Shown piece after piece: positions 4,641 to 23,059 of a DNA stretch of 23,119 nucleotides. This DNA comes from Myxococcales bacterium. GTDB taxonomy: Bacteria > Myxococcota > Polyangia > Polyangiales > Polyangiaceae. A program made the translations under genes and the position numbers. The DNA is taken from the NCBI GenBank assembly GCA_020430865.1, contig JAGQIY010001277.1, positions 1-23,119 of the forward strand, written 5' to 3'. Numbering within the stretch: position 1 is the first letter of the stretch; each line of letters begins with the position of its first letter. The notes beneath the pieces are model-generated. The model was given only the letters and a program-made list of their open reading frames with translations, was not told the DNA's origin and did no database searches.

Positions 4641-4954
4641 GCTCTCTCCGTTGGGCGCGCGCGGCGCCACAGCTACACACCAACCGGGACGGGCGGAAGA
4701 CGCGGGCACCACCCCAAAGCCTGAGGGACCATCGCACAAGTGACGCGCCGACGGTAAGACCAGAGCGGGCACTGCAGCCCCCAACAGCCGGACGCCCGAG
4801 CCACTCGGCGACCGCACTATAAGGCAGCAACCCGACTCGACCCCGCGCCTTGCGGGACCCCTCGCGCTCGACTGCCGGCGCTGAAGACAGACGAGTGCCA
4901 TTTTCGCGTCCGCCATCGGTGGTGGTCCGCGGTGGGCCGAAGTAGCGTCCGCGC
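4641..4954. promoter_or_regulatory. Divergent control region between two Na+-coupled transporters
   Basis: This 314-bp non-coding stretch separates the AGCS gene (minus) from the NhaC gene (plus). A GGAGAGAGC ribosome site precedes the minus gene. A GC-only inverted repeat sits around 4650-4668. An AT-rich island at 4816-4823 reads TATAAG on the plus strand and TATAGT on the minus strand, the best candidate -10 element for the minus gene, but no clear -35 partner is visible. The plus gene has its own TAGCGT close to its start. I looked for a glycine riboswitch and did not find one. Confidence 0.5.
4943..4948 (+). promoter_or_regulatory. -10-like TAGCGT, 6 nt before the NhaC start
   Basis: A TANNNT hexamer followed by CCGCGC and then the GTG start. 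There is no purine-rich ribosome site at all, so initiation on a leaderless transcript is the simplest reading. Confidence 0.55.
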
Positions 4955-6805
4955 GTGACGGACGAAATCCAGGCGCCATCTAGCCAGCGGCTCTCTGACA
5001 GACCTCCTCGCAGCGTGCCCGATCCTCACGCGAGGCGGTCCCAGGCGCGCACCTCCCTCACCCCCAAGACCCCCAGCGGGATTCGAGAGCTCCACGGCCG
5101 CCTGATCGCCGTGTCGCTGGGCGTGGCGCTGCTCGGCCTGCTGCCACACCTGTTGCCGAGCGCGGTCCACGAAGGGCGAGCAGTCGGCTGGACGGCGCTG
5201 GTGCCGCCGCTGGTCGCGGTGGTCGTGACGCTGGCGACGCGACGACTGCTCCCGGCGCTGGGTGGCGCGGTGCTGATCGGCGCGATCCTGCGCTTCAAGT
5301 CGGGCGTGTTCGTCGAGGGCAGCAAGACCTACGTCCTGGACAACCTGACCAACCCCACCCACCTCTACATCATCGGCTTCACCCTGGCGCTGCTCGGGAT
5401 GGTGCAGGTGGTCAGCCGCGCTGGAGGGACCTCGGGCATCGTCGAGTGGGTCAGCCGGCGCATCCGGTCAGCGCGCTCCACCGAGGTCGGCGCGGCGCTG
5501 ATGGGGCTCTTCGTGTTCTTCGACGACTACGCCAACTGCATGCTCGTCGGCCCCACGATGCGCCCGCTCACCGATCGCTGGCACATTTCCCGAGAGAAAT
5601 TAGCATACATAGTCGACTCCACCGCCGCACCCGTCGCCGGCCTCGCTGTTATTTCCACATGGATAGGTCACGAGGTAGGGCTACTGGATGCCCAGGCGCA
5701 GGCGCTGGGGCTCGACCAGCGCGGCTACGCGCTCGTGCTCTCGGCGTTGCCCTTCAGATTCTACTGCGTGTTCTCGCTGGTGTTCGTCTTCGCGTCGACG
5801 CTCCTGGGGCGCGACTTCGGACCCATGCTCAGAGCGCAGCGCCGCGCGCGTCACCTGCAGAAGCCACTCAGAGATGGCGCGCGCCCGATGGCGCAAGGCA
5901 ACTCGGAGTTGATGGCGCCTCCGGAGGACAAGCCGCACCGCGCTCGCAACGCCTTGATCCCGATCCTCGCGGTGGTACTCGTCGCGATGGTGGGGTTCAT
6001 CGTCGATGGTGGCGGCGCCGGCAAGCTCGGCGGCAACCCGGGCCTCGCGCTGAGCTTCACCTTCTGGCGAGAGACGCTCGGGGCGAGCGAGAACAACGTC
6101 AAGATGCTGCTCCTGGCCGCGAGCGTTGGCTCGCTGCTGGCGCTGGCGTTGCCCCTCGCGCAGGGCATCCTCGGCGTCGGCGCTGCGTTGCGCGCCTACT
6201 GGAACGGTGTGCGGCACGCAGCCTCCGCCGTGGTGGTCCTGTTGCTGGCCTGGGCGCTGGCACAGGTGTGTCAGGACCTCGGCGCTCAGGAGGTGCTGGG
6301 AGCGACGCTGCGAGGAAACATCGCGCTCTGGGTCGTTCCCCTGGCGACCTTCGGACTCGCCGCTGCGATCGCGTTCGCCACGGGCACGTCGTGGGGGACG
6401 ATGAGCATCCTGATCCCCATCGCGGTGCCCTTGGCGCACTCCATGGGGGGGCTGCCTCTGATGATCCTGACGGGCGCTGCGGTTCTGGACGGGGCGATCT
6501 TCGGCGACCACTGTTCACCCATCAGCGACACCACGCTGATGTCCAGCATCGCTTCCGGCTCGGATCACCTGGACCATGTGGAAACGCAGCTGCCCTACGC
6601 CGTGTTCGTGATGCTGGTGGCCGCGACGGTGGGCTACCTGCCGATCGCCCTCGGGGGACCGACGTGGCTACCCTACATCCTGGGTAGCGCGGTGATCGTG
6701 CTGTGGTTACGAGTCGTGGGTCGTCGCCCCGAGGACGGCCCTCCACCGGTCGAGGACGACGAGCTCGAGGACGACGTCGAGCTGGCCCCAGACCACATCG
6801 CCTGA
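4955..6805 (+). CDS. Na+/H+ antiporter, NhaC family
   Basis: 616 residues with about a dozen hydrophobic segments. The NhaC-family core is clear: VFFDDYANCMLVGPTMRPLT (about 187-206), followed by SREKLAYIVDSTAAPVAGLA (212-231) and TWIGHE. Later motifs are FATGTSWGTMSILIPIA and GDHCSPISDTTLMSSIASG. These regions hold the acidic and polar residues expected to handle the ions. The protein exchanges Na+ for H+ (or related amino-acid/Na+ exchange) at the inner membrane. A charged cytoplasmic loop follows LLGRDFGPM (about residues 290-328). Odd points are a long hydrophilic N-terminal tail (1-45) and a very acidic C-terminal tail (EDDELEDDVELAPD). GTG 4955 sits 6 nt after a TANNNT hexamer and no ribosome site is visible. 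Confidence 0.92.
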   Translation: MTDEIQAPSSQRLSDRPPRSVPDPHARRSQARTSLTPKTPSGIRELHGRLIAVSLGVALLGLLPHLLPSAVHEGRAVGWTALVPPLVAVVVTLATRRLLPALGGAVLIGAILRFKSGVFVEGSKTYVLDNLTNPTHLYIIGFTLALLGMVQVVSRAGGTSGIVEWVSRRIRSARSTEVGAALMGLFVFFDDYANCMLVGPTMRPLTDRWHISREKLAYIVDSTAAPVAGLAVISTWIGHEVGLLDAQAQALGLDQRGYALVLSALPFRFYCVFSLVFVFASTLLGRDFGPMLRAQRRARHLQKPLRDGARPMAQGNSELMAPPEDKPHRARNALIPILAVVLVAMVGFIVDGGGAGKLGGNPGLALSFTFWRETLGASENNVKMLLLAASVGSLLALALPLAQGILGVGAALRAYWNGVRHAASAVVVLLLAWALAQVCQDLGAQEVLGATLRGNIALWVVPLATFGLAAAIAFATGTSWGTMSILIPIAVPLAHSMGGLPLMILTGAAVLDGAIFGDHCSPISDTTLMSSIASGSDHLDHVETQLPYAVFVMLVAATVGYLPIALGGPTWLPYILGSAVIVLWLRVVGRRPEDGPPPVEDDELEDDVELAPDHIA

Positions 6806-7066
6806 GGAGTCCACAGGAATTCCAGGAATTCGCCGATCTTTACCTTCTGGTCACCCCCAAGGGTGGTGCAGTTTGGCGGAGAGATGAGTCAGAAAGTCAG
6901 TTGGACGTTCCATCGGCACCCTCACCGCCGTTGAGATCCTGCGCTCGTACCCCTACGCTCGTCGGGGGCGAGCGCTTCGCACACGCTGTGTCGCGCGGCG
7001 CTGACATCTCGGGCGCCTCGTTCAGGTCGCCCCATGCGACCCTGAGGTGGAACGCGGAAGGATGCT
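6806..7066. other. Intergenic stretch before the histidine kinase
   Basis: A 261-bp gap with no convincing ORF. It begins with a 9-bp near-perfect tandem repeat (see 6815-6832). A 5-bp hairpin CACCC/GGGTG lies at 6852-6865. The remainder has no clear promoter. It ends with a GGAAGGA ribosome site ahead of TTG 7067. Confidence 0.6.
6815..6832. repeat. Tandem AGGAATTCC/AGGAATTCG repeat
   Basis: Two 9-bp units in direct tandem, each containing the palindrome GAATTC, directly after the antiporter gene. It could be an operator for a factor binding two half-turn-spaced sites, or chance. Only eight of the nine bases agree between units. Confidence 0.45.
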
Positions 7067-9409
7067 TTGGACTCTCGCGTAGCGCTGCTCATCGGCTGTT
7101 CTCAGGAGCTGGAGGCGGCGCTACGCCCGCACTTCGAGCCTCGACTCGAGACCGAGTGGCGAGAGCTCACGCACGCGCTCGCCGCGGACCTGGTGTTGAT
7201 TGGACCGGAGGAGCCCGACGCCACGCTCGCCGCGCAGCACCTGGCAAAGCTCGCTCCCGCCGCGCGCCTGGTGCTCTACGTCCCGACCAGCGAGCTGCAG
7301 CAGGTGCGCGAGGTGGTGGACCAAAGCCCGAACCTGCCGATGGACACCCAGGTGCTGGGCTTTCCCGATCCCCAGGAGCTCGAGCGCGTGGTTCACCTGG
7401 CGGCCACGCGGATCACCCTGCAAGCAGCCCGGGATCGCGATCTGCAGCGGGACGCTCCTGGCTCCGCCCTCGATGACTTCGTGCCGCTGATCCCCAACTT
7501 CTTCTACCAGTGGTTCAGGCAGCGGCGAGACGACCTCGCTCCCGAGATCCTGGCAACCCTCTCGCAGTCCCCTGGGGGCGACACGCTGCTCGCGCTGATC
7601 CACAACGATCGCCTCGCAGGCTCGACCGACGAACGACGTGCACTGGAGCATCGGGCGTTCATCGAGGGAGATCTCCAGCCCTTCGTCGATAGCTACCGGG
7701 AACGCGGCAGGCACTTCGCCGCCATCGGCGTATCGCTCACCACCTGGCTGCATGTCCTGGGCGCCTTGCGGAGAGTGGTCTGGGAACGCTGGACCGACTC
7801 GTCGGAGTTCGATCCGCGACGGGTGGGCGCCTTCGCCACGGGCCTGGAGCACTACACTCAGGTCACGTTCGGCGCCCTGCTGCAGGGCTGGCAGGCGGCC
7901 ATCGAAGAAGGCCACCACCGCCTGCATGAGCGCGAGCGCCTGTTCACGGCTCTGGTCGAGTCGTCCCAGGACGTGATCCTGAGCAAGACCCCGGACGGCA
8001 CGATCACCGCCTGGAATCGCGCGGCAGAGGAACTCTATGGCTATCCCGCATCCGACGCGCTGGGACAGCACATCTCGCTCATCGTCCCCGAGGACAGGCG
8101 CGCCGAACTCGACTGGGTGATGCGTGAGGTGCGGGCAGGGCGCGGGGTGAGAAACCTGGTCACACGGCGTGTCTCCAAGGACGGACGCAGCCATGACGTC
8201 GCCATCACGGTCTCCCCGATCCGCAACAACCTCGGACAGGTGGTGGCCGCGTCGACCTTCGCCAGGGACATGAGCGATCGCCTCGGGCTCGAGCGACGCA
8301 ACGCCGCCATCCTCGCCGGCGCCATCGACGCGATCATCACCATCGACGACGCTGGCCAGGTAGTCGAGTTCAACGCCGCTGCGCAGACTCTGTTCGGCTA
8401 CTCCATGTCTGAGGCCGTTGGCCGCGAGCTGGCCGAGCTGGTGATCCCCGAGGAAGAGCGCGCCGCCCATCGCGCGGGGCTCGCTCATCAGCGCGCAGGC
8501 GGCAAGTCGCGCATCCTCGGTCGACGGGTCGAGCTGGTAGCCCAGCGCAAGGGCGGATCCCGTTTCCCCGTTGAAGCGAGCATCGTGCGCCTGGCGGGCA
8601 CTGACCCGCCGCTGTTCACTGCGTTCGTACGCGACCTGACCGAGCTGAAGCGAGCCAAGGAGGATCTGCGGCGCATCATCACCGATCTCACGCGCTCCAA
8701 CTCCGACCTGGAGCAGTTCGCCTACGTGGCCTCCCACGATCTGCAGGAGCCGCTGCGCATGGTCTCGGCCTACATGGACCTGTTGCAGCGCGACTACGCG
8801 GGCCAGCTCGATGAGCGCGCGCAGCGCTTCATCCAGTACGCGACGACCGGCGGCAAGCGGATGAAGGAGCTGATCGACGATCTGCTGGCCTACTCCCGGA
8901 TCGAGGCCCACGCGGTGAAGCCGACCGCGTGCGACTGCGGCGAGATCGTCGACATCGCCACGCAGAATCTCAAGCGCCTGGTCGATGACAGCGCTGGCAA
9001 GGTCACCTGGAGCGACCTCCCGAGCGTCGACGCCGAGGCCGGACAACTCCTACAGTTGTTCCAGAACCTGATCGGCAACGGCCTGAAGTTCCGCCGCGCC
9101 GACGCGCCCCCGGAGGTTCACGTGAGCGCCACGGATGCCGGCACTGAGTGGCTGTTCTGCGTCCGCGACAACGGTGTGGGCTTCGAACCCCGGTTCGCCG
9201 ACCGCATCTTTCAGATGTTCCAGAGGCTACACCCTCGCACGTCGTTTCCCGGCTCTGGCATCGGGCTCGCCGTAGCGAAACGCATCGTCGAGCGCCACGG
9301 CGGGCGGATCTGGGCGGAGTCCGAGCCAGGCCAGGGCACGCTCTTCTACTTCACGCTGCCAATTCAGCCTCGGCGAGGCAGCCTCACGAGCGCGCACGCT
9401 GGTGCTTGA
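7067..9409 (+). CDS. Cytoplasmic PAS-PAS sensor histidine kinase
   Basis: 780 residues from TTG 7067, supported by GGAAGGA 4-5 nt upstream. There is no membrane span, so it is cytoplasmic. Residues 1-125 resemble a receiver-like alpha/beta fold (VALLIG, ADLVLIG, ARLVLYV) but lack the phosphoacceptor Asp. Residues about 135-280 form an unassigned helical domain with a faint resemblance to RsbR-type N-terminal sensors. PAS1 covers about 290-405 and PAS2 about 411-528. The dimerisation/phosphoacceptor domain has His557 in SHDLQEPLRMV. The ATPase domain shows the N box (NLIGNGLKF, Asn667), DNGVGF (Asp701) and GSGIGLAVAKRI. The SHDLQEPLRMV type of kinase resembles those of bacterial phytochromes, which pair with Rcp1-type regulators, and such a regulator follows 68 nt downstream. 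The signal sensed is unknown. Confidence 0.93.
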   Translation: MDSRVALLIGCSQELEAALRPHFEPRLETEWRELTHALAADLVLIGPEEPDATLAAQHLAKLAPAARLVLYVPTSELQQVREVVDQSPNLPMDTQVLGFPDPQELERVVHLAATRITLQAARDRDLQRDAPGSALDDFVPLIPNFFYQWFRQRRDDLAPEILATLSQSPGGDTLLALIHNDRLAGSTDERRALEHRAFIEGDLQPFVDSYRERGRHFAAIGVSLTTWLHVLGALRRVVWERWTDSSEFDPRRVGAFATGLEHYTQVTFGALLQGWQAAIEEGHHRLHERERLFTALVESSQDVILSKTPDGTITAWNRAAEELYGYPASDALGQHISLIVPEDRRAELDWVMREVRAGRGVRNLVTRRVSKDGRSHDVAITVSPIRNNLGQVVAASTFARDMSDRLGLERRNAAILAGAIDAIITIDDAGQVVEFNAAAQTLFGYSMSEAVGRELAELVIPEEERAAHRAGLAHQRAGGKSRILGRRVELVAQRKGGSRFPVEASIVRLAGTDPPLFTAFVRDLTELKRAKEDLRRIITDLTRSNSDLEQFAYVASHDLQEPLRMVSAYMDLLQRDYAGQLDERAQRFIQYATTGGKRMKELIDDLLAYSRIEAHAVKPTACDCGEIVDIATQNLKRLVDDSAGKVTWSDLPSVDAEAGQLLQLFQNLIGNGLKFRRADAPPEVHVSATDAGTEWLFCVRDNGVGFEPRFADRIFQMFQRLHPRTSFPGSGIGLAVAKRIVERHGGRIWAESEPGQGTLFYFTLPIQPRRGSLTSAHAGA

Positions 9410-9415
9410 GTGACG

Positions 9416-9432
9416 GGGTGTCTGCTGCACCC
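9416..9432 (+). terminator. Weak hairpin after the histidine kinase
   Basis: GGGTG and CACCC form a 5-bp stem with a 7-nt loop, a few nt after the kinase stop. There is no T tract. At most it attenuates transcription into the response regulator gene. Confidence 0.25.
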
Positions 9433-9451
9433 AGCTAAACTCTCTGGCGAC

Positions 9452-9471
9452 AGCAGTGATGCTGCTACGCT
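9452..9471 (+). promoter_or_regulatory. -10-like TACGCT with adjacent inverted repeat, response regulator
   Basis: TACGCT (9466-9471) lies 6 nt before GTG 9478. Directly upstream, and sharing one base, is an inverted repeat AGCAG-N5-CTGCT (9452-9466) that would occupy the promoter spacer and could be an operator. The element suggests that the regulator can be transcribed apart from the kinase. Confidence 0.45.
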
Positions 9472-9477
9472 GAGGGT

Positions 9478-9906
9478 GTGACGCGACTCGCCAACGAGAA
9501 CGCCATCGTCATGGTCGACGACAACGACGGCGATTTATTCCTTGCGGAAACTTGCTACCGACGATCGAGCCTGCACGCGCCCTGGCTCGCGTTCGCCTCC
9601 GGTCGTGACTTCATCGCTTACATGAGCGGGGTCAAGCTGGGGCAGCACCCGATGCCCGCCCTGGTGCTGCTGGACATCAACATGCCAGAGATGTCCGGCA
9701 TCGAGGTGCTGGAGCACCTGAGGCAAGATGCTGCGTTCGACGAGCTCCCGATCGTCTGCATGCTGACCAGCTCGAGCGATCCGCGAGATCGTGCGCAGGC
9801 CCAGAGGCTCGGCGCGCGTGACTTCTTCACCAAGCCGTCGACCACCGCGGAGTACGTGGCGTTGTTCGACTCCTTCGCACCCGGAGAACCAGCGCCCCTG
9901 GTCTGA
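9478..9906 (+). CDS. Single-domain response regulator, Rcp1-like
   Basis: 142 residues consisting of one receiver domain with no output domain. The acidic pair is Asp14-Asp15 (VMVDDNDGD), the phosphoacceptor is Asp66 (LLDINMPEMSG), the switch Thr is Thr97 (MLTSSS) and the conserved Lys is Lys119 (FFTKPST). The insertion around residues 45-60 and the DINMP version of the motif are typical of the Rcp1/phytochrome-partner class. The preceding kinase is the probable phosphodonor. With no DNA-binding domain it should act by protein contact or pass phosphate on. GTG 9478 lies 6 nt after TACGCT; the purines GAGGG are too close to the start for normal ribosome pairing. Confidence 0.93.
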   Translation: MTRLANENAIVMVDDNDGDLFLAETCYRRSSLHAPWLAFASGRDFIAYMSGVKLGQHPMPALVLLDINMPEMSGIEVLEHLRQDAAFDELPIVCMLTSSSDPRDRAQAQRLGARDFFTKPSTTAEYVALFDSFAPGEPAPLV

Positions 9907-9959
9907 GACCGAGGACCTCCGCTGGCCAAACAGGCGTCGATCCCGTCTGCCCGGAGGCG

Positions 9960-9965
9960 TACCCT
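9960..9965 (+). promoter_or_regulatory. -10-like TACCCT, 6 nt before the phosphofructokinase start
   Basis: TACCCT followed by GGGGCA and ATG 9972. It is the same hexamer as before the VWA lipoprotein at 16003. The GGGG could serve as a poor ribosome site but sits too close to the ATG. Confidence 0.5.
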
Positions 9966-9971
9966 GGGGCA

Positions 9972-11300
9972 ATGTCGGAAGCCTCGTCGCCCTCTCCCCC
10001 CCAGACCCCGGACCACTCAGGCTCGCAGATCCGCCGCGTCGGTGTGGTGTTCTCGGGTGGCCCCGCTCCAGCAGCGAACGCCGTGATCTGCTCGGCGGTG
10101 ATGTCGTTCCGCCGCCAGGGCAGAGAGGTGCTCGGGTTCCGGCACGGCTACGGGAGCCTGCAGTCATTCGGCGACGAGCTCCCCCGACTCGAGGCAGAGA
10201 AGCACTACTTCCGCTTCGAGGATCATCACCTGCGCGGGCTACGCAACGCCCGCGGCATCATCATCGGGACCGCACGAGCGAACCCTGGCAAGGACATACA
10301 TGGCGCCGCGGACCTGCGCATCCCCGAGAAGACGCGGCGCCTGGACAACGTGTATCGCGCGCTGTGCGAGCTGGAAGTGGACGCATTGATCAGCATCGGC
10401 GGCGACGACACGCTGAAGACGGCGAACTTCCTCCACGAATATCAGAAGACCCTGCCGGCGGACGCGAAGCGTATCCGCGTGGTACACCTCCCGAAGACCA
10501 TCGACAACGACTACCGCGGGATCGACTTCACCTTCGGCTTCTTCACCGCCGTGGACTTCATGGCGCAGGAGCTCCTCAACCTGCGCGCCGACGCCATGGC
10601 GACGGGCTCCTACTTCATCGTCGAGACCATGGGACGCAAGGCTGGTTGGCTGTCGTACGGCGTGGCCATCGCTGGCGAGGCGCACCTGGTCGTGGCGGTC
10701 GAAGACGTGCGAGGCGAGCTTGCGCTGAAGGAGGTCGTGCGTGATGGCCGGGGCGAGCGCGAGGAGCAACGCCTGAACCTCGAGGCGCTCGCGGATCGGA
10801 TCGTGGACCTGATCCTCACGCGTGAACACCGGGGCAAGCAGTACGGCACCGTCGTCCTCGCCGAAGGGCTCGCGGAGATGCTGCCCCAGAGCTTCCTGGA
10901 TGGCGTCTCTCGAGACGAACATGGTCACATCTCCCTGGGGAAAATCGACATCGGAAAGCTGGTGGCGCAGCTGGTGAGCGAGCGCTTCGAAGCGCGGACC
11001 GGACGCAAGAAGAAGCTGACAGGCGTTCAGCTGGGCTACGAGTCCCGCTGCAGCGTGCCCCATGCCTTCGACGTGATGCTGGGCTCCCAGCTCGGTGTCG
11101 GCGCGTATCGCGCGCTGGTCGAGGAGGGTCTGGATGGTCACATGGTCAGTGTGACCGGCCAGCTCGATCTGCAGTTCGTGCCCTTCTCCGCGCTGGTCGA
11201 CCCCGAGACGTTGCTCACCGAGGTCCGCTTCGTCTCGCCCGAGAGCGACTTCCACCGCCTGGCCCGCATGCTCGGCACTCGCGTCGTTCCGCAGCGCTAG
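9972..11300 (+). CDS. pfp: Pyrophosphate-dependent phosphofructokinase
   Basis: 442 residues, group II PFK. It phosphorylates fructose 6-phosphate to fructose 1,6-bisphosphate in the cytoplasm, reversibly when PPi is the donor. Visible motifs are the phosphate-binding GGPAPAANAVI (29-39), GGDDT (143-147), PKTIDND (174-180, with the catalytic Asp178) and VETMGRKAGW (218-227, substrate binding). In this superfamily a second Asp in GGDD and a Lys in PKTIDND mark the PPi-using enzymes; ATP-using enzymes usually have Gly at those places. The donor assignment is therefore by family rule. It is longer than ATP-PFKs of about 320 residues, as expected for the PPi class. It follows the response regulator by 65 nt but has its own promoter-like hexamer. 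A short hydrophilic tail of about 19 residues precedes the domain. Confidence 0.93.
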   Translation: MSEASSPSPPQTPDHSGSQIRRVGVVFSGGPAPAANAVICSAVMSFRRQGREVLGFRHGYGSLQSFGDELPRLEAEKHYFRFEDHHLRGLRNARGIIIGTARANPGKDIHGAADLRIPEKTRRLDNVYRALCELEVDALISIGGDDTLKTANFLHEYQKTLPADAKRIRVVHLPKTIDNDYRGIDFTFGFFTAVDFMAQELLNLRADAMATGSYFIVETMGRKAGWLSYGVAIAGEAHLVVAVEDVRGELALKEVVRDGRGEREEQRLNLEALADRIVDLILTREHRGKQYGTVVLAEGLAEMLPQSFLDGVSRDEHGHISLGKIDIGKLVAQLVSERFEARTGRKKKLTGVQLGYESRCSVPHAFDVMLGSQLGVGAYRALVEEGLDGHMVSVTGQLDLQFVPFSALVDPETLLTEVRFVSPESDFHRLARMLGTRVVPQR

Positions 11301-11339
11301 CCCAGCGAGGATCACTCGCACGCCGCGCCAAGCCTCGCG

Positions 11340-11345
11340 TACGAT
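11340..11345 (+). promoter_or_regulatory. Candidate -10 TACGAT of the Cys-rich lipoprotein
   Basis: A TANNNT hexamer lies 53 nt before ATG 11399. This gene instead has a long leader and a near-perfect ribosome site, AGGAGGAG (11386-11393), so it acts as a contrast to the leaderless-type genes. No clear -35 element is visible. Confidence 0.35.
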
Positions 11346-11398
11346 ACTTGCAGGGTGCTGGGGACGCCGGGGCAAGAGCGCCCTCAGGAGGAGTGATC

Positions 11399-12322: not shown

Positions 12323-12329
12323 GCCCGCG

Positions 12330-13643: not shown

Positions 13644-13703
13644 TTCAGCGGGGTTATAGCTCACCCCACGGGGCGTTGGCGTGCCTTCGTGGCGCCTGCG
13701 CGG

Positions 13704-13709
13704 TAGATT
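13704..13709 (+). promoter_or_regulatory. -10-like TAGATT, 7 nt before the small lipoprotein start
   Basis: TAGATT followed by CGGGGAC and GTG 13717. The position favours GTG 13717 over the in-frame GTG at 13681, which would put the hexamer inside the coding sequence. Confidence 0.5.
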
Positions 13710-13716: not shown

Positions 13717-14277
13717 GTGAAGGCGATCGTTCCTCGCTCCCGTGGTCCGCTCCGCGCTGCCGCTCTGCTCGGCGGCGCGTTGCTCGCGCTGGCCTGCAGC
13801 GCCAACCCTCCCCCCCGCTGGCAAGAAGGCGGAGCGGCGTTGGTGGTTCAAGCGGCCCGCTGGGATCGCCCCGACGACGACCCCATCGAGATCCTCCCCA
13901 ATGGTCAAGTGCTCGAAGACGGCGAGCCGATCCTGCTGGTGGATCGCGTCGGCCGCGTCGTCGATGAGGACAACGACCCGGTGGCGATCCTGTTGCCCGA
14001 CGGATTCGTTGCCGGAAACGACAACGAGCTCCTGGGGCGGATCGGTGTGTCCAACGCGGCCCCCCCCAACGCCGCGGCGGCCTGGCTGGCGATCATGCCG
14101 GACGGGACGGTGGTGCGCTACGACGCGGACGGTGACCGCGAAGACGCCGGGCGCTGGGTGGGCTGCGACGGCCCCGCGCGCCGGACTTGCACGCTGATCT
14201 CGCACATGCTGCTCGTGCGCGAATACCAGCGGCGCCCGCGCTCCGGAGTCAGCATCGGCGTCGGCATCGGCTTCTGA
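13717..14277 (+). CDS. Small lipoprotein with repeated PDG-type strands
   Basis: 186 residues from GTG 13717. A basic start (KAIVPRSRG), a hydrophobic core and LALAC form a lipoprotein signal. The mature part contains four short similar units: LPNGQVLEDG, DRVGRVVDED, LPDGFVAGND and MPDGTVVRYD. Each is a turn flanked by beta strands, suggesting a small repeat sheet. A conserved-looking Cys pair follows (WVGCDGPARRTCTL). The C-terminus ends in an alternating Ser/Gly/Val strand (SGVSIGVGIGF). I recall similar lipoproteins in other Polyangia but no function. It is divergent from serS. Confidence 0.75.
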   Translation: MKAIVPRSRGPLRAAALLGGALLALACSANPPPRWQEGGAALVVQAARWDRPDDDPIEILPNGQVLEDGEPILLVDRVGRVVDEDNDPVAILLPDGFVAGNDNELLGRIGVSNAAPPNAAAAWLAIMPDGTVVRYDADGDREDAGRWVGCDGPARRTCTLISHMLLVREYQRRPRSGVSIGVGIGF

Positions 14278-14310
14278 GGCACGCCGCTTAGCGAAGTCCC
14301 GCAGTAGGCA

Positions 14311-14334
14311 ATCCGCGCGGCTTTTTTGGCGGAT
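14311..14334 (+). terminator. Hairpin with T6 tract after the small lipoprotein
   Basis: ATCCGC/GCGGAT can form a 6-bp stem whose loop contains GCGGC followed by six T. Alternatively GCCGC (14283-14287) pairs with GCGGC (14317-14321) directly before the T tract, which is a more classical terminator. A T6 run stands out in such GC-rich DNA. Confidence 0.4.
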
Positions 14335-14374
14335 CTCACGCCGCACGGTAGCCAAAGCGTAGAGGTCCTTCGCC

Positions 14375-15706: not shown

Positions 15707-16002
15707 CAAGGCTGTCCCGGGACACCGGAGCGCGACCTCCCAGGCACCAGCGCGCGAAATCGCCCGTCGAAGCGAGAAGATCGGCCCCGTGCTGGCCGTG
15801 CATCCCCGGGCCAGCCCAAGCACGCGAATTGTGCCCACAGCGGATGGCACGGAGTGCTGCGGGTTCGCCGCATGGAAAGTCCAGGCGTCACGCGCGTTGG
15901 CACGAGCACACCCGTCACCGCTACGTGAACTGGACTCGTATCTGCGCGAATGGGATCCGCGGTCTGCCGTGCGGCAGGAATCGGCGTGCTACCCTGGAGG
16001 GC
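15707..16002. promoter_or_regulatory. Palindrome-rich intergenic region before the VWA lipoprotein
   Basis: A 296-bp gap. It holds a perfect 12-bp palindrome TGTCCCGGGACA (15713-15724), a 7-bp hairpin GCTGGCC/GGCCAGC with an 11-nt loop (15791-15815), and CTGCCG-TG-CGGCAG (15964-15977). A promoter-like TACCCT lies at 15990-15995. The first two may end the upstream gene; the third overlaps the expected -35 of the downstream gene. I see no ORF that looks real. Confidence 0.55.
15990..15995 (+). promoter_or_regulatory. -10-like TACCCT, 7 nt before the VWA lipoprotein start
   Basis: TACCCT followed by GGAGGGC and ATG 16003. The GGAGG is only about 2 nt from the ATG, closer than a working ribosome site normally sits. 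The palindrome at 15964-15977 covers the -35 position. Confidence 0.5.
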
Positions 16003-17259
16003 ATGACGTCGCTTCACCAAGGCTCCCGTCGTCCGTACTCCACCTCGCGCGCAGCCAGCGGCATCGCCATCGGCGCACTGCTCCTCGCGGCGAGTCTGTT
16101 TCCCGGCGGTTGCAGCGGCTCCTCCGATGGCACGTCGGTCTGTGCCGAGCTCGGAGACGCCTGCGGCGGCGAGTGTACCTTCGATCAGGACTGCCCGAGC
16201 GGAACTCACTGCGGCGCGGGCGACACCTGCACCGCGGAGTGCACGACGGACGGCAGTCAGTGCGGACTGGGTCGGCACTGCAATTCCCTGGGGCAATGCG
16301 AGGACGGCGAGGGCGGGTCTGGCGGCTCGGGCGTCGGCGGATTTGGCGGCGGCTCGACCGGTGGCACCGGTGGCTCCGGGTGCATCGACGAGGACGTGAA
16401 GTTCGAGCCCCAGACGCCTACCGTCGTGCTCCTGGTCGACCAGTCGGGATCGATGTCCGAGAAGTTCGCAGGCACCACGCGCTGGAACGCGGTCTACGAC
16501 GCGCTCTTCGACATGCCGAGCGGCGTCGTGTTCACGCTCGAGGACAAGGTCCGCTTCGGCCTCAGCCTGTATACCAGCCACGGGGGCTTCAAGGGCGGCG
16601 AGTGCCCGATCCTCACGGAACAGAGCGTGGCGCTCGGCAACTACAACGCACTGGAGGCGCTCTACTCTGCCAGCGACCCAGACGGCGACACGCCCACGGG
16701 TGAGAGCATCACCGCGGTCGCGGCGGAGCTGGCTCAGGTCACCGAACCCGGGGACAAGGCCATCGTGCTGGCGACGGACGGCGAGCCAGACAACTGCACG
16801 GACGCTGACGCCCACGACGCAAGCTCCCAGAAGATCTCCGTCGACGCCGCCACGGCCGCATTCGGTCAGGGCATCCGCACTTACGTGATCGCGGTGGGCA
16901 GCGACATCAGCGACGCGCACCTCCAAGACGTCGCGAACGCGGGTACCGGCACCACCAGCGGTCCCGACGCGCCGTTCTGGAAGGCCAATGATCAGGCCGG
17001 TCTGATCGACGCCTTCAACACCATCATCGAAGGCGTGCGCTCCTGCATCTTCGACCTGAACGGCACCGTCGCGATGGAAGCCCAGAGCAAGGGCAACGTC
17101 AGACTGGACGGCGAGACGCTGGCCCAGGACGATCCCAACGGCTGGCAGCTGAACTCACCGAGTCAGGTGGAGCTGGTCGGCGACGCCTGCGAGGCGATCA
17201 AGAGCGGGGACCACGACATCAAGATCTCGTTCCCCTGCGGATCCATCACGCCCCGCTGA
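16003..17259 (+). CDS. VWA-domain lipoprotein
   Basis: 418 residues from ATG 16003; a longer in-frame extension upstream has no conserved features. The lipoprotein signal ends at FPGGC (Cys37). A Cys-rich module follows (about 47-99, e.g. CTFDQDCPSGTHC). A Gly/Ser linker covers about 102-126. The von Willebrand factor A domain starts near residue 135, with the metal-ion site DQSGS (Asp146, Ser148, Ser150), a DTPTGES loop and ATDGEPD. VWA domains bind a divalent metal and mediate protein contacts outside the cell. The C-terminal part after GVRSCIF is about 70 residues with Cys residues and may be a small beta domain. Adhesion or surface-complex roles are possible but not shown. Confidence 0.9.
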   Translation: MTSLHQGSRRPYSTSRAASGIAIGALLLAASLFPGGCSGSSDGTSVCAELGDACGGECTFDQDCPSGTHCGAGDTCTAECTTDGSQCGLGRHCNSLGQCEDGEGGSGGSGVGGFGGGSTGGTGGSGCIDEDVKFEPQTPTVVLLVDQSGSMSEKFAGTTRWNAVYDALFDMPSGVVFTLEDKVRFGLSLYTSHGGFKGGECPILTEQSVALGNYNALEALYSASDPDGDTPTGESITAVAAELAQVTEPGDKAIVLATDGEPDNCTDADAHDASSQKISVDAATAAFGQGIRTYVIAVGSDISDAHLQDVANAGTGTTSGPDAPFWKANDQAGLIDAFNTIIEGVRSCIFDLNGTVAMEAQSKGNVRLDGETLAQDDPNGWQLNSPSQVELVGDACEAIKSGDHDIKISFPCGSITPR

Positions 17260-17286
17260 ACCGCTCGACGACGGAGCCAGGGTCGG

Positions 17287-17317
17287 GGGTGAGGCGCACT
17301 TCGGGGCCACCTCACCC
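17287..17317. terminator. Bidirectional terminator between convergent genes
   Basis: Perfect 8-bp arms GGGTGAGG (17287-17294) and CCTCACCC (17310-17317) with a 15-nt loop, placed between the stop of the VWA lipoprotein and the stop of RNase R. There is no T tract. The convergent position supports a terminator role. Confidence 0.6.
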
Positions 17318-17332
17318 ACCCGGTCAACCACT

Positions 17333-19690
17333 CTACTTCTTGCGCCGGCCCTTGTTCTTGGACGCCTTCGGCTTGCTCGCCTTGGGACCAGCCTTGCGCG
17401 CACCGGCGTCACGCCCCGTTGCGCGAGGGCCCGCGCGCCCGCTGCGAGGGCTCGCCTTGCGACCGCCGTCGTTGCGTGACCCGCGCTTGCTCAGCGCGTC
17501 GTCCAGCGTGCGCCTACCGCGACGTCCCCGCTGGGGCTTCTGCGCCAGATCGTCCGGCGGAATGCGCCGCGCGAACACCGCCCGTCGCAGCACCGAGACG
17601 TCCTCGATCTCCACCAGCATCCGGTCCCCAACCTGGACCAGGTCCCCGCTGTTCAGACCGTGGACACCGAGCTCATCGTCGGTCATCTCGTAGCGATCGG
17701 GTCCCAGCGACTCCAGCCTCACGAGCACGTCGACGAAGGGGTCGTCCAGGCTGACGTAGAGCCCCGAGCCGACCACCGTGGTGACGGTCCCCTCGAGGCG
17801 ATCCCCGATTCGATCCCGCATGAACAGCGCCCGATACAGATCGGAGACCTCGCGCTCGACGTCCATCACGGCGCGCTCCCGCTGACTTGAACGCGTGGCG
17901 GCCGTCGCCGCTTGTTCCCGCGCGGAATCAGTCGTGTCGACGGCACCACCGCGCAGCAGGTGCTTGACCTGCCGGTGCACCATCAGATCGGGGTAGCGCC
18001 GAATCGGCGAGGTGAAGTGCAGGTAGGCATCGGAGGCCAGGCCGAAGTGGCCCACGTTGGAGATGTCGTACGTCGCCTGCTTCAGCGAGCGGAGCGTCAA
18101 GCCCTCGAGCACTTGCTTGCGCGGGTGCTCCTGGATCGAGCGCAAGAACTTGCCCAGGCCGAGCGGCTCCAGCATCTCGTCCAGGTCGAAGCGCACACCC
18201 AGCTTGTGAGCGACCTCACCCAGTCGCTCGAGCTTCTGTTCATCGGGCTTGCCGTGGACCCGGTAGATGGCCAGCGACTTGCGCCGCCCGAGCCAGCGCG
18301 CCACCAGCTCGTTGGCGAGCAGCATCAGCTCCTCGACGATCTGATATGCGCGCTTGATACCCGGGTCCTGGGTGCGGCGGTAGATCGCGGTCGGCGCGCC
18401 CGTCTCGGGGTCGACGACGATGCGCGCCTCCGGCAGGTCCAGGTCCAGCGCGCCACGCTTCATGCGCGCGCGACGCAGCTTCCCGGTGACCTCCGCGAGC
18501 ACCTTCAGATCGCGCTTGAAGGCATCCGCCTGGGCGCTGCGCGGTGGTTCCTCGGTGAAGCCCAGCGCGCGCGCGACGCCGCCATAGGTCAGGCGCGCCG
18601 CCGAGCGCATCACACCCTCCACGATCTTCACTCGCTTGACCTTCGCCTGTTTGTCCAGCTCGGCAATGACGCACAGACACAGGCGATCGGTGTCCGGCAG
18701 CAGGCTGCACAGGTCGGCGGCGAGCGCCGAGGGCAACATGGGGATTGCTCGATCGGGCAGGTAGATGGTGCAGCCGCGCCGCAACGCCTCTTGATCCAGC
18801 GCAGAGCCGGGCTGGACGTACTCGCTGACGTCGGCGATGGCGACCCAGATCTTGTAGCCGTCGCCATCGCGCTCGGCCCACACGGCGTCATCGTGATCGC
18901 GCGCGTCCTCGGGATCGATGGTCGGCAAGGGCACGTGCCGCAGGTCTTCTCGCTTCTCCGCGGCAACGCGACGCAACCTGGCAGCCATGCCCTCGGCTTC
19001 GGCCATCGCCTCTGGCGGGTGCTCTTCCGTGACCTCCTCGCGCACGAGGATCTTGGCCACCTCGACCTGCGGATCTCCGTCAGCCCCCAGCACCTCCACC
19101 AGCTCGGCGTGCGGGTTCTCGTTGCCGGAGTCTGGCCACTGGGTGATGCTCACCACCGCGGCGTCACCCTCGGAGCCTCGTTGCTCCCCCGCCGGCAACG
19201 TGATGGGACCACGGATACGGGTGTCATCCGGATCCATCCACAGCGAGCCACCTCGACGCCGCAGGACCCCAGCCACCCGTGGGCTGCGGCGCTCCACGAT
19301 CTCCTCGATCCGGCCCTCGACGCCCCTCGAGCTCCGCCCGACCACGCCGACGCGCACGCGATCCCGGTGCATCGCCCCCCCGATCGCCTCCGGAGGAACG
19401 TACACGTCGTCCTTGCCCACCTGGACCACGAAGCCGAATCCTCGCGGATTCACGTTCAGGAAGCCCTCCCAGCTCTCGTCGGACCTGCGCTTGCGCACGT
19501 CGGCGCGATACTTCCCGCCGCGCATCTCCTTCAACTTGCCCTCGGCGACCAGGCCGTCGAGCAGTTCGGGCAGGCGGCGCCGGGAACCACGAGGCACGGC
19601 GCAGAGTTCTCCAATCTCGCCCACACTGAGCGGGCGGCCTTCGGCGAGCAGCGCTTCAACGATTGCTTCGGGTTTGGGTAAACGAGCCAT
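17333..19690 (-). CDS. rnr: Ribonuclease R
   Basis: 785 residues from ATG 19690; the frame extends upstream but without homologous sequence. It is a processive 3'-5' exoribonuclease that degrades structured RNA in the cytoplasm. In order: a winged-helix N-terminal domain (about 1-65), cold-shock/OB domains (about 72-240, with GFLNVNPRGFGFV), the RNB catalytic domain from about 250 and an S1 domain near 640-720. The active site is DPEDARDHDDAVW (259-271), with the four metal-binding Asp at 259, 265, 267 and 268. The tail (about 720-785) is rich in Lys, Arg, Gly and Ala, as in other RNase R proteins, and probably helps RNA binding. TATAGC lies 7 nt before the start. It is divergent from the VKOR-DsbA gene and convergent with the VWA gene. 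Confidence 0.96.
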   Translation of the reverse strand: MARLPKPEAIVEALLAEGRPLSVGEIGELCAVPRGSRRRLPELLDGLVAEGKLKEMRGGKYRADVRKRRSDESWEGFLNVNPRGFGFVVQVGKDDVYVPPEAIGGAMHRDRVRVGVVGRSSRGVEGRIEEIVERRSPRVAGVLRRRGGSLWMDPDDTRIRGPITLPAGEQRGSEGDAAVVSITQWPDSGNENPHAELVEVLGADGDPQVEVAKILVREEVTEEHPPEAMAEAEGMAARLRRVAAEKREDLRHVPLPTIDPEDARDHDDAVWAERDGDGYKIWVAIADVSEYVQPGSALDQEALRRGCTIYLPDRAIPMLPSALAADLCSLLPDTDRLCLCVIAELDKQAKVKRVKIVEGVMRSAARLTYGGVARALGFTEEPPRSAQADAFKRDLKVLAEVTGKLRRARMKRGALDLDLPEARIVVDPETGAPTAIYRRTQDPGIKRAYQIVEELMLLANELVARWLGRRKSLAIYRVHGKPDEQKLERLGEVAHKLGVRFDLDEMLEPLGLGKFLRSIQEHPRKQVLEGLTLRSLKQATYDISNVGHFGLASDAYLHFTSPIRRYPDLMVHRQVKHLLRGGAVDTTDSAREQAATAATRSSQRERAVMDVEREVSDLYRALFMRDRIGDRLEGTVTTVVGSGLYVSLDDPFVDVLVRLESLGPDRYEMTDDELGVHGLNSGDLVQVGDRMLVEIEDVSVLRRAVFARRIPPDDLAQKPQRGRRGRRTLDDALSKRGSRNDGGRKASPRSGRAGPRATGRDAGARKAGPKASKPKASKNKGRRKK

Positions 19691-19697
19691 GGTCCCC

Positions 19698-19703
19698 GCT
19701 ATA
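19698..19703 (-). promoter_or_regulatory. -10-like TATAGC, 7 nt before the rnr start
   Basis: A minus-strand TATAGC is separated from ATG 19690 by GGGGACC, with TTGGGC as a possible -35 17 nt further upstream. It ends in C rather than T, so it is a weaker member of the group. Confidence 0.4.
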
Positions 19704-19844
19704 GACCGTCCCCGCGCCGCGCCCAACGTCATCCTGCGGGTGCTGGCTGCCCGCCCCCCCGCTGGTCCACGCCGCTGCCGAACCGCAGCACGCTGGTCCC
19801 ACAGGGCGTCTCGTGGGCCGTTTGCGGCGGTTTTCCCCAAAAGC

Positions 19845-19873
19845 TTCGACTCCCTTGGGCTTGGCGCTAGAAC
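19845..19873 (+). promoter_or_regulatory. Promoter-like TTCGAC-N17-TAGAAC of the VKOR-DsbA gene
   Basis: TTCGAC (19845-19850) and TAGAAC (19868-19873) are 17 nt apart, the normal sigma-70 spacing. GTG 19880 lies 6 nt after the second element. It is the only leaderless-type start here with a recognisable -35. Confidence 0.5.
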
Positions 19874-19879
19874 GCGGGA

Positions 19880-21052
19880 GTGCGAGCAGGACACGCGTCG
19901 AGAGGAAGCTGGCTTTTGCTGTTGCGCATCGCCACCTTGCTGGCCCTGGCGGCAAGCATGGCGTTGTTGATCGACTACACCACGCCCGCCGAGGCGTTCT
20001 GCGGCGCCGACTCTGCCTGTGCGAAGGTGCGCGGCAGCGGCTACGGCTACCTGTTCAACGGCTCGATCCCCGTGCCGGCGGTGGGCCTCGCCGGCTTCGC
20101 CAGCCTCTACCTGTTATCCCTCTGGAAAGACTCCGCCAGCGGGCGCAAGCTGCTGGTCTACGCGGCCTCCGCGGGGGCGGCGGTCGGGCTGTTCCTGATC
20201 GTGCTGCAGGTCGCCGTGGTGAAGCACCTGTGCTGGCTGTGCATGGTCACCGACATCAGCGCGATCGTCGCTGGCTCGGCGAGCATCATGTACTCCAAGG
20301 CGGTCGGGGACGCGGCGGCCGCCGAGGAGCAGGGCCGCAGCGTTGCCTACGGTCCGGACTTCGCACCCTGGGCGCTGGCGCTGATGGGCGTCATCGCCGT
20401 GGCGGCGCCCGCGCTCTGGCCGCGATTCAGGCCGCTGCCCCCGGTGCCGCCGCCGATCGCAGCGCTGTATGCGCCTGACAAGATCAACGTCGTCGAGTTC
20501 TTCGACTTCGAGTGCCCGCACTGCCGCGCGTTGCACCCGAAGCTGACGAAGGCCAAGGAGCCCTACGGCGAGAAGGTGAACTTCGTTCGCAAGAACTACC
20601 CCCTGGCCTTCCACCTGAACGCCAAGGCCTCGGCCCTGGGTCACCTCTGCGCGCGGGAGCAGGGGAAGGGCGACGAGTACGCCGAGCGAATGCTCGAGAA
20701 CGAGCCGATAGGCTCGATTGGCGCGACGCGCACTGCGAAGGCGCTCGGGCTCGACCTGGAGAAGTTCGAGGCGTGCGTCCAGAGCGCGGACACCCAGCAG
20801 GCGCTCGACAAGGAGATGCAGATCCTCCGCGACGCAGAGATGGTCGGCCTACCGACGACCTACATCGGCGGGCGGCGCATCATCGGCAACCAGCCCGAGG
20901 ACGTCTACGTCGATGCGCTTAGCCGCGCGGAAGCGGAACTGAAGAGCGGGGAGCACGAGAGCGGCGTGCCGGCCCCGGTCTATGCCCTGGTCTGCCTGGT
21001 CGCGTTCGCAGGGGTCGCCTTCGCCGGACGCAAGCGACCCGCCAACGCCTGA
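19880..21052 (+). CDS. VKOR-DsbA fusion, disulfide-forming membrane protein
   Basis: 390 residues. The N-terminal part is a vitamin K epoxide reductase-like domain with about four membrane spans. Its loop cysteines are Cys41 and Cys47 (FCGADSAC) and its quinone-side active site is CWLC (Cys118, Cys121). Another span (about 160-182) leads to a thioredoxin/DsbA-like domain with CPHC (Cys212, Cys215) and the cis-Pro region GLPTTYIGG. Such fusions are known: DsbA oxidises secreted proteins and the VKOR part reoxidises it, passing electrons to quinone. The C-terminus has a further hydrophobic segment followed by RKR, so the DsbA domain is tethered at both ends. The many Cys-rich lipoproteins nearby are plausible clients (inference). 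GTG 19880 lies 6 nt after TAGAAC. Confidence 0.93.
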   Translation: MRAGHASRGSWLLLLRIATLLALAASMALLIDYTTPAEAFCGADSACAKVRGSGYGYLFNGSIPVPAVGLAGFASLYLLSLWKDSASGRKLLVYAASAGAAVGLFLIVLQVAVVKHLCWLCMVTDISAIVAGSASIMYSKAVGDAAAAEEQGRSVAYGPDFAPWALALMGVIAVAAPALWPRFRPLPPVPPPIAALYAPDKINVVEFFDFECPHCRALHPKLTKAKEPYGEKVNFVRKNYPLAFHLNAKASALGHLCAREQGKGDEYAERMLENEPIGSIGATRTAKALGLDLEKFEACVQSADTQQALDKEMQILRDAEMVGLPTTYIGGRRIIGNQPEDVYVDALSRAEAELKSGEHESGVPAPVYALVCLVAFAGVAFAGRKRPANA

Positions 21053-21237
21053 GGCGACCACTCGGGCGGCGACCGTGCCCCCGACGCTGCGCTCCATGGG
21101 CGGCCTCGAGAGCCCCCGCGTCGGGCGTCCTTCGACACGCGGTGCGCATCGACGCACCCTCACCCCCGAACTCGTCTCCGGACCTCCCACTCGCGCGCAC
21201 CGATCGTGTTTCGGGCCTATTGCACGAGGCAAAACCG
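21053..21237. other. Intergenic stretch before add
   Basis: 185 bp without a convincing ORF. An inverted repeat GGTGCG-N6-CGCACC lies at 21141-21158. GAGG at 21226-21229 is 8 nt before ATG 21238 and is the likely ribosome site of add. No clear -10/-35 pair is visible. Confidence 0.5.
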
Positions 21238-22437
21238 ATGGTAGAGTCCTCTATGGAAACGAAAAGTCAGAAACTGCCTGAAAGCACGAGCGGCTCCGGT
21301 CGCCGCGTCGTGCCCTTCGAAGTGTTTCAGGCGCTGCCCAAGACCGACCTTCACGTCCACCTGGACGGCTCTCTGCGGCTGTCCACCATCCTCGACCTGG
21401 CGAAGGAGGAAGGCATCGACCTTCCCGCCAACACCGAAGACGGCCTGAGCAAGGCGATCGGTTGCGGCAACAACTTCGGCTCTCTGGTCGAGTACCTGCG
21501 CGGCTTCGAGATCACCCTGAAGGTGATGCAGACCGAGTCGGCGCTGGAGCGCATCGCGTTCGAGCTCGCCGAGGACGCGCATCAAGAGAACGTCCGCTAC
21601 ATGGAGGTGCGCTACGCGCCGATGCTGCACACCCAGCGCGGCTTGAAGCTCACCAAGGTGGTCGAAGCCGTGCTCAACGGCCTGAGCCGCGCCCGCGAGA
21701 CCTACGGCATCAAGTGCAACGTGATCATCTGCGGGATCCGCAACATCTCGCCGGAATCATCCTACGAGATGGCCGAGCTCGCGGTAGCCTACAAGGGACG
21801 TGGCGTCGTCGGCTTCGATCTGGCCGGTGCCGAGGCGGATTTCCCCGCGGCACACCACAAGCGCGCGTTCCAGCTGGTCCGTGACAACAACATCAACTGC
21901 ACGATCCACGCGGGTGAGGCGTATGGACCGGAGTCCATAGCGCAGGCCATCCACGTCTGCGGCGCCCACCGCATCGGTCATGGCTGCCGCCTGCGCGAGA
22001 ACGGCGACCTGCTGCACTACATCAACGATCACCGCATCCCCCTCGAGTGCTGCCCGTCGAGCAACGTGCAGACCCAAGCCGTGGAGACGCTGGAGAGCCA
22101 TCCGCTGAAGCTCTACTTCGACCTCGGCCTGCGGGTGACGATCAACACCGACAATCGCCTGATCACCGACACCACCGTCTCCAAGGAGCTCCACCTGGTG
22201 CACACCAAGATGGGCGTCCCGTTCAGGGAGATAAAGAGCATGATCGTCGCGGGCTTCAAGTCAGCGTTCCGGCCCTTCCACGAGAAGCAGGCGGCGCTCC
22301 GCCACGTGGTCTCCGAGCTCAGCCGCTATGACGACGAGGGCAACCTCGTCGACGCGCCGGTCAAGGAGTCCAAGCGCCCGCGCGCCAGCGCCGAGCTGAG
22401 CAGCCCGCCAGCATCCGCACCCACGGCCAAGGCCTGA
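21238..22437 (+). CDS. add: Adenosine deaminase
   Basis: 399 residues from ATG 21238, which has GAGG 8 nt upstream; a second in-frame ATG at 21253 is possible. It hydrolyses adenosine (and deoxyadenosine) to inosine plus ammonia in purine salvage. The zinc ligands and catalytic groups are visible: HVHLDGSL (His39, His41), HAGE (His224, catalytic Glu227), RIGHG (His248) and NTDNR (Asp305). The residue after the zinc Asp is Asn rather than the Asp of the animal and E. coli enzymes; the mycobacterial enzyme, as I remember it, also has TDNR. PSSNVQT and MEVRYAPMLHTQRGL are further family marks. The last 35 or so residues are a hydrophilic Ser/Pro/Ala tail. A strong hairpin follows the gene. Confidence 0.96.
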   Translation: MVESSMETKSQKLPESTSGSGRRVVPFEVFQALPKTDLHVHLDGSLRLSTILDLAKEEGIDLPANTEDGLSKAIGCGNNFGSLVEYLRGFEITLKVMQTESALERIAFELAEDAHQENVRYMEVRYAPMLHTQRGLKLTKVVEAVLNGLSRARETYGIKCNVIICGIRNISPESSYEMAELAVAYKGRGVVGFDLAGAEADFPAAHHKRAFQLVRDNNINCTIHAGEAYGPESIAQAIHVCGAHRIGHGCRLRENGDLLHYINDHRIPLECCPSSNVQTQAVETLESHPLKLYFDLGLRVTINTDNRLITDTTVSKELHLVHTKMGVPFREIKSMIVAGFKSAFRPFHEKQAALRHVVSELSRYDDEGNLVDAPVKESKRPRASAELSSPPASAPTAKA

Positions 22438-22454
22438 AGGCGCGCTCCAGGAGT

Positions 22455-22490
22455 CGAGAGCCCTGCGCCACAGCCGGCGTCGGGCTCTCG
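22455..22490 (+). terminator. Long hairpin terminator after add
   Basis: Perfect 9-bp arms CGAGAGCCC (22455-22463) and GGGCTCTCG (22482-22490) continue, past one mismatch, into GCGCC/GGCGT around a 6-nt loop. The sequence after it is TATTCCT. It starts 17 nt after the add stop. This is the best stem in the window. Confidence 0.75.
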
Positions 22491-22531
22491 TATTCCTCGG
22501 GCGTCCCTACCTGGATCACACCGGCCTCGCG

Positions 22532-22537
22532 TAGACT
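22532..22537 (+). promoter_or_regulatory. -10-like TAGACT, 6 nt before the zinc-ribbon protein start
   Basis: TAGACT followed by GCTGCG and ATG 22544. There is no purine-rich ribosome site between hexamer and start, so this is one of the two clearest leaderless-type starts, with 4955. Confidence 0.55.
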
Positions 22538-22543
22538 GCTGCG

Positions 22544-23059
22544 ATGGCCAGCATCGGGCGCTTCTTCTCCGTGACGCGGGCGGCGCTGGCCCTGGGTCTG
22601 GTGGGGGTGAGCGCAGTCCTCGGGGCGCGCTCGTTGACGCAGACTCAGAGCGGCGACCTCCCAGTCGGCGCGCTGATCCTCGCGGCCAGTCTGCTGCTGT
22701 TCGGCCTCGGTATGCTGCTCACCGTATTTCCGTACGGCTGTTCGCGCTGCCGGGTGAAGCTGCAGGAATCCGACACGACGTTCCCGGTCGGCTGCTACGA
22801 GCGACTCAACCAGACGCTGGTGCAGGGCAACGGACCGGCGCTGTGGGAGCTGCGCATCGAACCCAAGGACGAGACGCATTTCGCCAAGCTGCAGCTCGAG
22901 TACTGCCCGCGCTGTCAGCAGGTCGGGCGCGCGCAGGCCATCAGCCAGCACCACGACGGCGAGTTCGTGAACACCCGACAGCAAGGGCCACGCGTCGCCG
23001 TTGACGCCGAGTTCATCGCCACCGCCCTCGAGGTCGTGCGAAAGCGCGCGCTGCTCTGA
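22544..23059 (+). CDS. Two-span membrane protein with zinc-ribbon-like cysteines
   Basis: 171 residues, family not recognised. Two hydrophobic segments (about 8-30 and 40-63) are followed by a soluble part with CSRC (about 66-69) and CPRC (about 122-125), two CxxC knuckles about 53 residues apart that could bind one zinc. An extra Cys lies in VGCYERL. The short loop and basic residues after the second span suggest that the knuckle domain is cytoplasmic (inference). It comes after the add terminator and has its own promoter-like element, so it is probably a separate unit. Confidence 0.75.
   Translation: MASIGRFFSVTRAALALGLVGVSAVLGARSLTQTQSGDLPVGALILAASLLLFGLGMLLTVFPYGCSRCRVKLQESDTTFPVGCYERLNQTLVQGNGPALWELRIEPKDETHFAKLQLEYCPRCQQVGRAQAISQHHDGEFVNTRQQGPRVAVDAEFIATALEVVRKRALL

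Follow-up and report, generated by a model that had tools for sequence, protein, structure and literature searches.

The question raised by this locus is whether a short sequence placed almost against the coding sequence can serve as the promoter of genes whose mRNAs carry no leader. In contig JAGQIY010001277.1 of a Myxococcales bacterium (assembly GCA_020430865.1; positions 1 to 23,119 of the forward strand, 67.4% GC, the whole 23,119-nt stretch being referred to here as the window), the hexamer TANNNT recurs a few nucleotides before start codons, and an earlier note on this DNA had read these copies as signs of leaderless transcription. Messages that are leaderless or bear a leader of 1–4 nt are very probably the right explanation of these near-start hexamers. 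That reading draws support from the enrichment of the hexamer at gene starts of relatives, from Shine-Dalgarno (SD) words at background level, from the conservation of hexamer and spacing, and from a footprint at serS that is present in 25 of 30 genomes. One limit is that the signal went unseen in some of the phylum's sampled lineages.

The positional enrichment is substantial. Among 1609 starts in seven positive sets (the window belongs to one of them), 145 have TANNNT at a gap of 6–9 nt (counted between hexamer and start codon), where 18.9 would be expected; removal of the window genes leaves 140 of 1592. The earlier note had proposed comparing the hexamer frequency at starts of relatives with controls, and its claim withstands that comparison on the samples drawn, the frequency lying far above background. 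Individually, the sets comprise the nearest relative found, G001 (the Polyangia bacterium metagenome assembly that contains contig L001; phosphofructokinase 90% and serS 93% identical to the window), counted together with the window (20/223, 3.4 expected); G029, of the same genus as G001 (21/286, 3.2 expected); G056 (29/281, 2.8 expected); G033 (13/239, 1.8 expected); 42 relative loci (45/461, 6.4 expected); G260 (6/65, 0.6 expected); and G270 (11/54, 0.7 expected). Little or no signal at these gaps appears in the small samples of G119 (2/50, 1.9 expected), G195 (2/61, 0.8 expected) and G105 (0/55, 1.9 expected), nor in the likewise small pooled sample of four distant genomes (0/56, 1.8 expected), and Escherichia coli yields 4 matches in 103 starts (5.4 expected).

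For these counts, starts were called by codon usage alone, to avoid picking starts for their motif, and expected values were taken from the TANNNT frequency at gaps 25–60. From G056, G033 and G029, 400 kb apiece were sampled; G001 was represented by 40 contigs, five further genomes by 80 kb apiece and four by 20 kb apiece; genes starting less than 70 nt from the end of a stretch were excluded. One contig appears in two sets, as L001 and as L043, so that a few genes are counted twice, and two members of the 42-locus set belong to other groups by title (L016, Syntrophobacteria; L027, Eisenbacteria). A first version of the gene caller performed poorly when GC content was very high, finding 41 genes but no signal in G260; the second, seeded on codon-position GC, recovers 65 genes in that set, and the set counts rest on it. 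Both versions agree closely for the first sets, and the SD/TA and operon counts rest on the first. A learned motif model also gave weight (10–21%) to motifs when the upstream DNA was shuffled, and plain counts were relied on instead. A mixture model with variable start assigns TANNNT a share of 18–26% in G001, G029, G056 and G260, 13% in G033, 45% in G270, 11% in G195 and 12% in Deinococcus radiodurans plasmid MP1, with 0.4–5% in G119, G105, the four distant genomes and E. coli; these percentages are rough because some control patterns score high.

Hexamer and spacing are both retained in G001 at all eight start regions that can be compared, three of the eight having the form TANNNC. Seven of these regions (4955, 9972, 13717, serS, rnr, 19880 and 21253) were compared by alignment. 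The eighth, 9478, was compared by position, the BLAST alignment having begun inside the gene; here G001 carries TACGCT at gap 6 before GTG, with different flanking bases. At the phosphofructokinase gene (9972) the gap bases and first codons differ from G001, and the hexamer and gap length are unchanged. No counterpart of 2835, 16003 or 22544 was found in the DNA of relatives that was compared.

The serS gene extends this comparison to 30 genomes. TA lies at −16 to −11 in 25 of them, at a nearly fixed site that falls mostly between −12 and −15, with 29 occurrences of TA in this short interval against 9 in the 29 positions just upstream (−45 to −17). By class, 23 genomes show TA alone, two TA together with an SD sequence, three an SD sequence alone and two neither. 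The three with SD only (L245, L249 and L252) form one group in the protein tree with modest support (80/85); they include G105, which is also SD-led across its 80 kb sample. The sixth base of the serS hexamer is often C: TANNNC at gaps 5–9 occurs in 17 of the 30 genomes and TANNNT at the same gaps in none, and the TANNNT counts given above are therefore too low.

The neighborhood of the hexamers is poor in ribosome-binding signals. SD 4-mers accompany 7.6% of 144 near-start TANNNT, compared with 5.3% of 189 control TANNNT windows, which is background level; among starts that lack a near-start TANNNT, 361 of 1351 have such a 4-mer. TA and SD coincide in 6 of 128 cases. Upstream of the hexamer, TTG occurs at a spacer of 16–18 nt in 14 of 144 cases (Poisson p = 3e-5 versus other spacers), and G is raised two positions upstream of the hexamer (62% versus 45%). 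A C at position −1 was considered as an initiator signal and rejected, SD genes carrying it nearly as often (58% versus 61%).

These features suggest a mechanism in which the hexamers would function as −10 elements of housekeeping (sigma-70-type) promoters lying very close to the coding sequence. Transcription would begin with the start codon's first base at gaps of 6–7 nt and a few bases upstream of it at gaps of 8–10 nt, yielding an mRNA with no leader or with one of 1–4 nt. Translation of such a message would proceed without SD contact, presumably via ribosome binding to a 5′-terminal AUG or GUG.

Several points weigh against this interpretation. We infer the promoter role of the hexamer, the position of the transcription start and the mode of ribosome binding from DNA sequence. 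The mutual exclusion of TA and SD is partly mechanical, both occupying the same bases. The −35 signal is weak and confined to a minority, and control TANNNT farther from starts are no worse in this respect (TTG in 20 of 189). Strictly leaderless transcription predicts fewer hexamers inside operons, and no clear drop is seen: likely-operon starts, lying at most 60 nt from a same-strand gene, carry the hexamer in 26 of 356 cases versus 99 of 1043 for the others (p = 0.24). The positive control, plasmid MP1, reaches just 6 matches in 100 starts at gaps 6–9 (1.8 expected); the species is known to have leaderless genes, and the method therefore underestimates. In the mixture model, the control TCNNNT scores 21.4% versus 19.9% for TANNNT in G001, 17.6% versus 12.3% in MP1 and 9.6% versus 10.9% in G195; in G056 the controls TNNNAT and TCNNNT reach 16.8% and 16.4% versus 25.5% for TANNNT, and in G270 a control (TNNNAT) reaches up to 24.8% versus 45.4%.

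Three other explanations of the hexamers can be set against the same data. If the promoters were real and the true starts lay farther downstream, the messages would have ordinary leaders, and codon usage alone does choose downstream codons for several window genes, for example placing the antiporter start at 5015 instead of 4955 and the phosphofructokinase start at 10044 instead of 9972. However, the antiporter aligns with the G001 protein from residue 1 (93% identity), serS displays the same geometry with a start taken as secure from its conserved N-terminus, and the distance from hexamer to start is itself conserved, all of which makes displaced starts improbable. A role in translation is a further candidate: the literature discusses possible binding of ribosomal protein S1 to AT-rich patches around −20 to −10 (PMC5397173), and the hexamer could be such a patch within a normal leader. 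The fixed bases of the hexamer (T1, A2 and T6), the narrow range of distances and the modest TTG excess 16–18 nt upstream speak for a promoter instead, and a translation signal of this kind is very improbable.

The remaining explanation takes the TA as part of the stop codon (TAG or TAA) of an upstream frame, or else as a by-product of start calling that favors codons directly behind an in-frame stop. In its favor, 25 of the 49 hexamers at gap 6 and 22 of the 32 at gap 9 begin with TAG or TAA, and both gaps are in frame with the start. Nevertheless, the hexamer coincides with the stop of an upstream same-strand gene in just 3 of 128 cases, the out-of-frame gaps 7 and 8 are enriched as well (34 and 29 hexamers, of which 16 and 13 begin with TAC or TAT), and the positive sets show no comparable TA excess at −9 or −6. 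The rarity of stop coincidences and the enrichment at out-of-frame gaps led to the rejection of a stop-codon artefact, which ranks as the least credible of the three. Leaderless or nearly leaderless transcription thus stands as the preferred account of the hexamers.

Within this account, spacing and start codon appear to be connected. In the seven positive sets, TANNNT occurs 49, 34, 29, 32 and 14 times at gaps 6, 7, 8, 9 and 10, over a background of 4.7 per position, and the 158 starts concerned comprise 104 ATG, 47 GTG and 7 TTG. At gaps 6–7 the ratio of ATG to GTG is 42:39, whereas at gaps 8–10 it is 62:8 (Fisher p = 1.2e-6, with the few TTG excluded); the skew runs in the same direction in all seven sets (stratified p = 6e-7). 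For genes with TANNNT at gaps 14–60, the start codons are 115 ATG, 70 GTG and 28 TTG. This pattern was spotted post hoc in the same data and was not fixed beforehand. A second set, obtained from 101 loci by removing 12 in sampled genomes and 6 that overlapped (83 loci and 221 genes remaining), did not reproduce it, with ATG:GTG ratios of 7:7 at gaps 6–7 and 2:3 at gaps 8–10; that set is small, has few matches at gaps 8–10 and centers on few gene families. The wider spacings also distinguish the sampled myxobacteria from plasmids of other groups. On Rhodococcus plasmid pRHL1 (700 kb, 504 genes, background 1.4 per position), 19 matches fall at gaps 5–7 and 2, both GTG and not above background, at gaps 8–10, compared with 86 and 75 here (p = 0.0009), and Deinococcus plasmids (200 kb, 123 genes) have nine matches at gaps 5–8 and none at gaps 9–10.

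It is tentatively proposed, as a conjecture that may well fail, that the distance from the −10 element fixes the permitted start codon, AUG and GUG being used equally at 6–7 nt and AUG almost exclusively at 8–10 nt. Such a rule would amount to a two-tier system, combining strictly leaderless initiation at RUG with a near-leaderless mode restricted to AUG, and the latter would be widespread in these myxobacteria but nearly missing from the plasmid samples of Rhodococcus and Deinococcus. In the simplest reading, transcription starts about 7 nt after the −10 element, and AUG tolerates a leader of 1–4 nt while GUG does not; the alternative is a transcription start shifted onto an A. In Mycobacterium tuberculosis, initiation apparently works less efficiently at positions 2–5 than at the first base (PMC4633059). 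The connection of start codon and spacing is possibly the new part of the findings, and no paper title on such a spacing rule stands among the matches listed for leaderless GTG starts and spacing.

In the window itself, all seven exact hexamers claimed by the earlier note are present at the gaps it gave. TAGCCT (2844..2849, minus strand) lies at gap 8 from ATG 2835; on the plus strand, TAGCGT (4943..4948) lies at gap 6 from GTG 4955 of a Na+/H+ antiporter family gene (Pfam PF03553), with identical hexamer and gap in G001; TACGCT (9466..9471) at gap 6 from GTG 9478 of a response regulator; TACCCT (9960..9965) at gap 6 from ATG 9972 of the phosphofructokinase family gene; TAGATT (13704..13709) at gap 7 from GTG 13717; TACCCT (15990..15995) at gap 7 from ATG 16003 of a gene for a VWA-domain protein; and TAGACT (22532..22537) at gap 6 from ATG 22544. 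Codon usage alone selects the same start at 2835, 9478, 13717, 16003 and 22544. The 296-nt stretch before the VWA gene (15707–16002) contains no assigned gene. An eighth exact copy, TAGAGT (21242..21247, plus strand, gap 5), precedes ATG 21253, a likely adenosine deaminase start, and was absent from the earlier list. The two near matches of that list were likewise confirmed and are TANNNC variants: TAGAAC (19868..19873, plus strand) at gap 6 from GTG 19880 of a VKOR-DsbA fusion gene, and TATAGC (19698..19703, minus strand) at gap 7 from ATG 19690 of rnr. A third variant, TATAAC (13653..13658, minus strand), lies at gap 9 from ATG 13643 of serS and is an addition to the list.

Eighteen window starts were tabulated, the coordinate of the first, partial gene (377) not falling on a start codon. 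Eight have an exact TANNNT at gaps 5–8 and three a TANNNC at gaps 6–9 (serS, rnr and VKOR-DsbA); at least three (1078, 4640 and 11399) have a plain SD sequence. The contrast case is the SD gene for a Cys-rich lipoprotein at ATG 11399 (plus strand), which carries AGGAGGAG at 11386..11393 and its TANNNT (TACGAT) 53 nt upstream, just as had been described. The accompanying claim that most hexamer-led genes lack a usable ribosome site is roughly right, with the exception of GAGG or GGAG at 9478 and 16003, which lie only 2–3 nt from the start (GGAGG just 2 nt upstream of ATG 16003). The predicted chance rate of one or two per cent of genes also holds, TANNNT having a probability of 0.0043 per position and about 1.3% over three positions. 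Over both strands of the window, 11 of 1263 ATG or GTG codons have TANNNT at gaps 6–8, seven of which are the listed gene starts; the other four are at 1759 and 15098 on the plus strand and 12585 and 2615 on the minus strand. When codon usage alone decides the starts, the hexamer stands at gaps 6–9 in 5 of 17 window genes (binomial p = 8e-6). The window genes further include a sigma factor, transporters and a histidine kinase besides the response regulator, and the similarity to G001 fits a placement of the window within or close to the Polyangia. An Rfam scan of the window gave no family at the gathering threshold, and a tRNA scan found none.

Discussions of leaderless initiation usually center on archaea, actinobacteria and Deinococcus. 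Leaderless starts appear to be frequent in several of the sampled myxobacterial lineages and went undetected in other lineages, sampled on a small scale and including one that is almost wholly SD-led; this contrast offers a natural comparison of the gain and loss of leaderless translation in bacteria. Myxobacterial annotations that depend on SD signals accordingly need their start sites checked. Among the matches listed from the open-licence literature, no paper title concerns leaderless genes in Myxococcus, Sorangium, myxobacteria at large or Myxococcota, and none of those listed for transcription start site mapping in M. xanthus concerns the leaderless subject.

The type of gene start is already known, and leaderless genes of delta-proteobacteria were predicted in bulk in 2011. 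In that work, Zheng et al. read TANNNT about 12 bp upstream as the −10 element of leaderless genes, with 8 of 33 delta-proteobacterial genomes positive and a mean of 15.8% (PMC3160421); the genes described here resemble those TA-led genes in the enrichment of the hexamer at a fixed short distance before starts, in showing no SD excess (in part a mechanical effect of the shared bases) and in starting mostly with ATG or GTG. The parts of its main text covered here make no mention of 'myxo', 'Sorangium' or 'Anaeromyxobacter' and contain no result on start codon by spacing. More broadly, 21.6% of bacterial species are cited as predicted users of leaderless transcription in connection with StartLink+ (PMC9581028).

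Further close parallels come from Deinococcus-Thermus and M. tuberculosis. In Deinococcus-Thermus, TANNNT likewise precedes the start by about 6–7 bp, a classical −35 is missing from most of the genes concerned, and in D. radiodurans the near-start motif has been demonstrated experimentally to act as a −10 element (PMC12340547); unlike in that system, the gaps here reach 10 nt and the promoter role is read from sequence. M. tuberculosis also uses a TANNNT −10 element without a conserved −35, and 26% of its genes with a primary transcription start site are leaderless, including 7 of 14 tRNA synthetase genes with such a site, as serS seems to be here (PMC3898074). The two systems diverge in codon choice: in M. 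tuberculosis, ATG and GTG frequencies are similar between leaderless and leadered genes (PMC3898074), whereas in the sampled myxobacteria GTG nearly vanishes at gaps of 8–10 nt.

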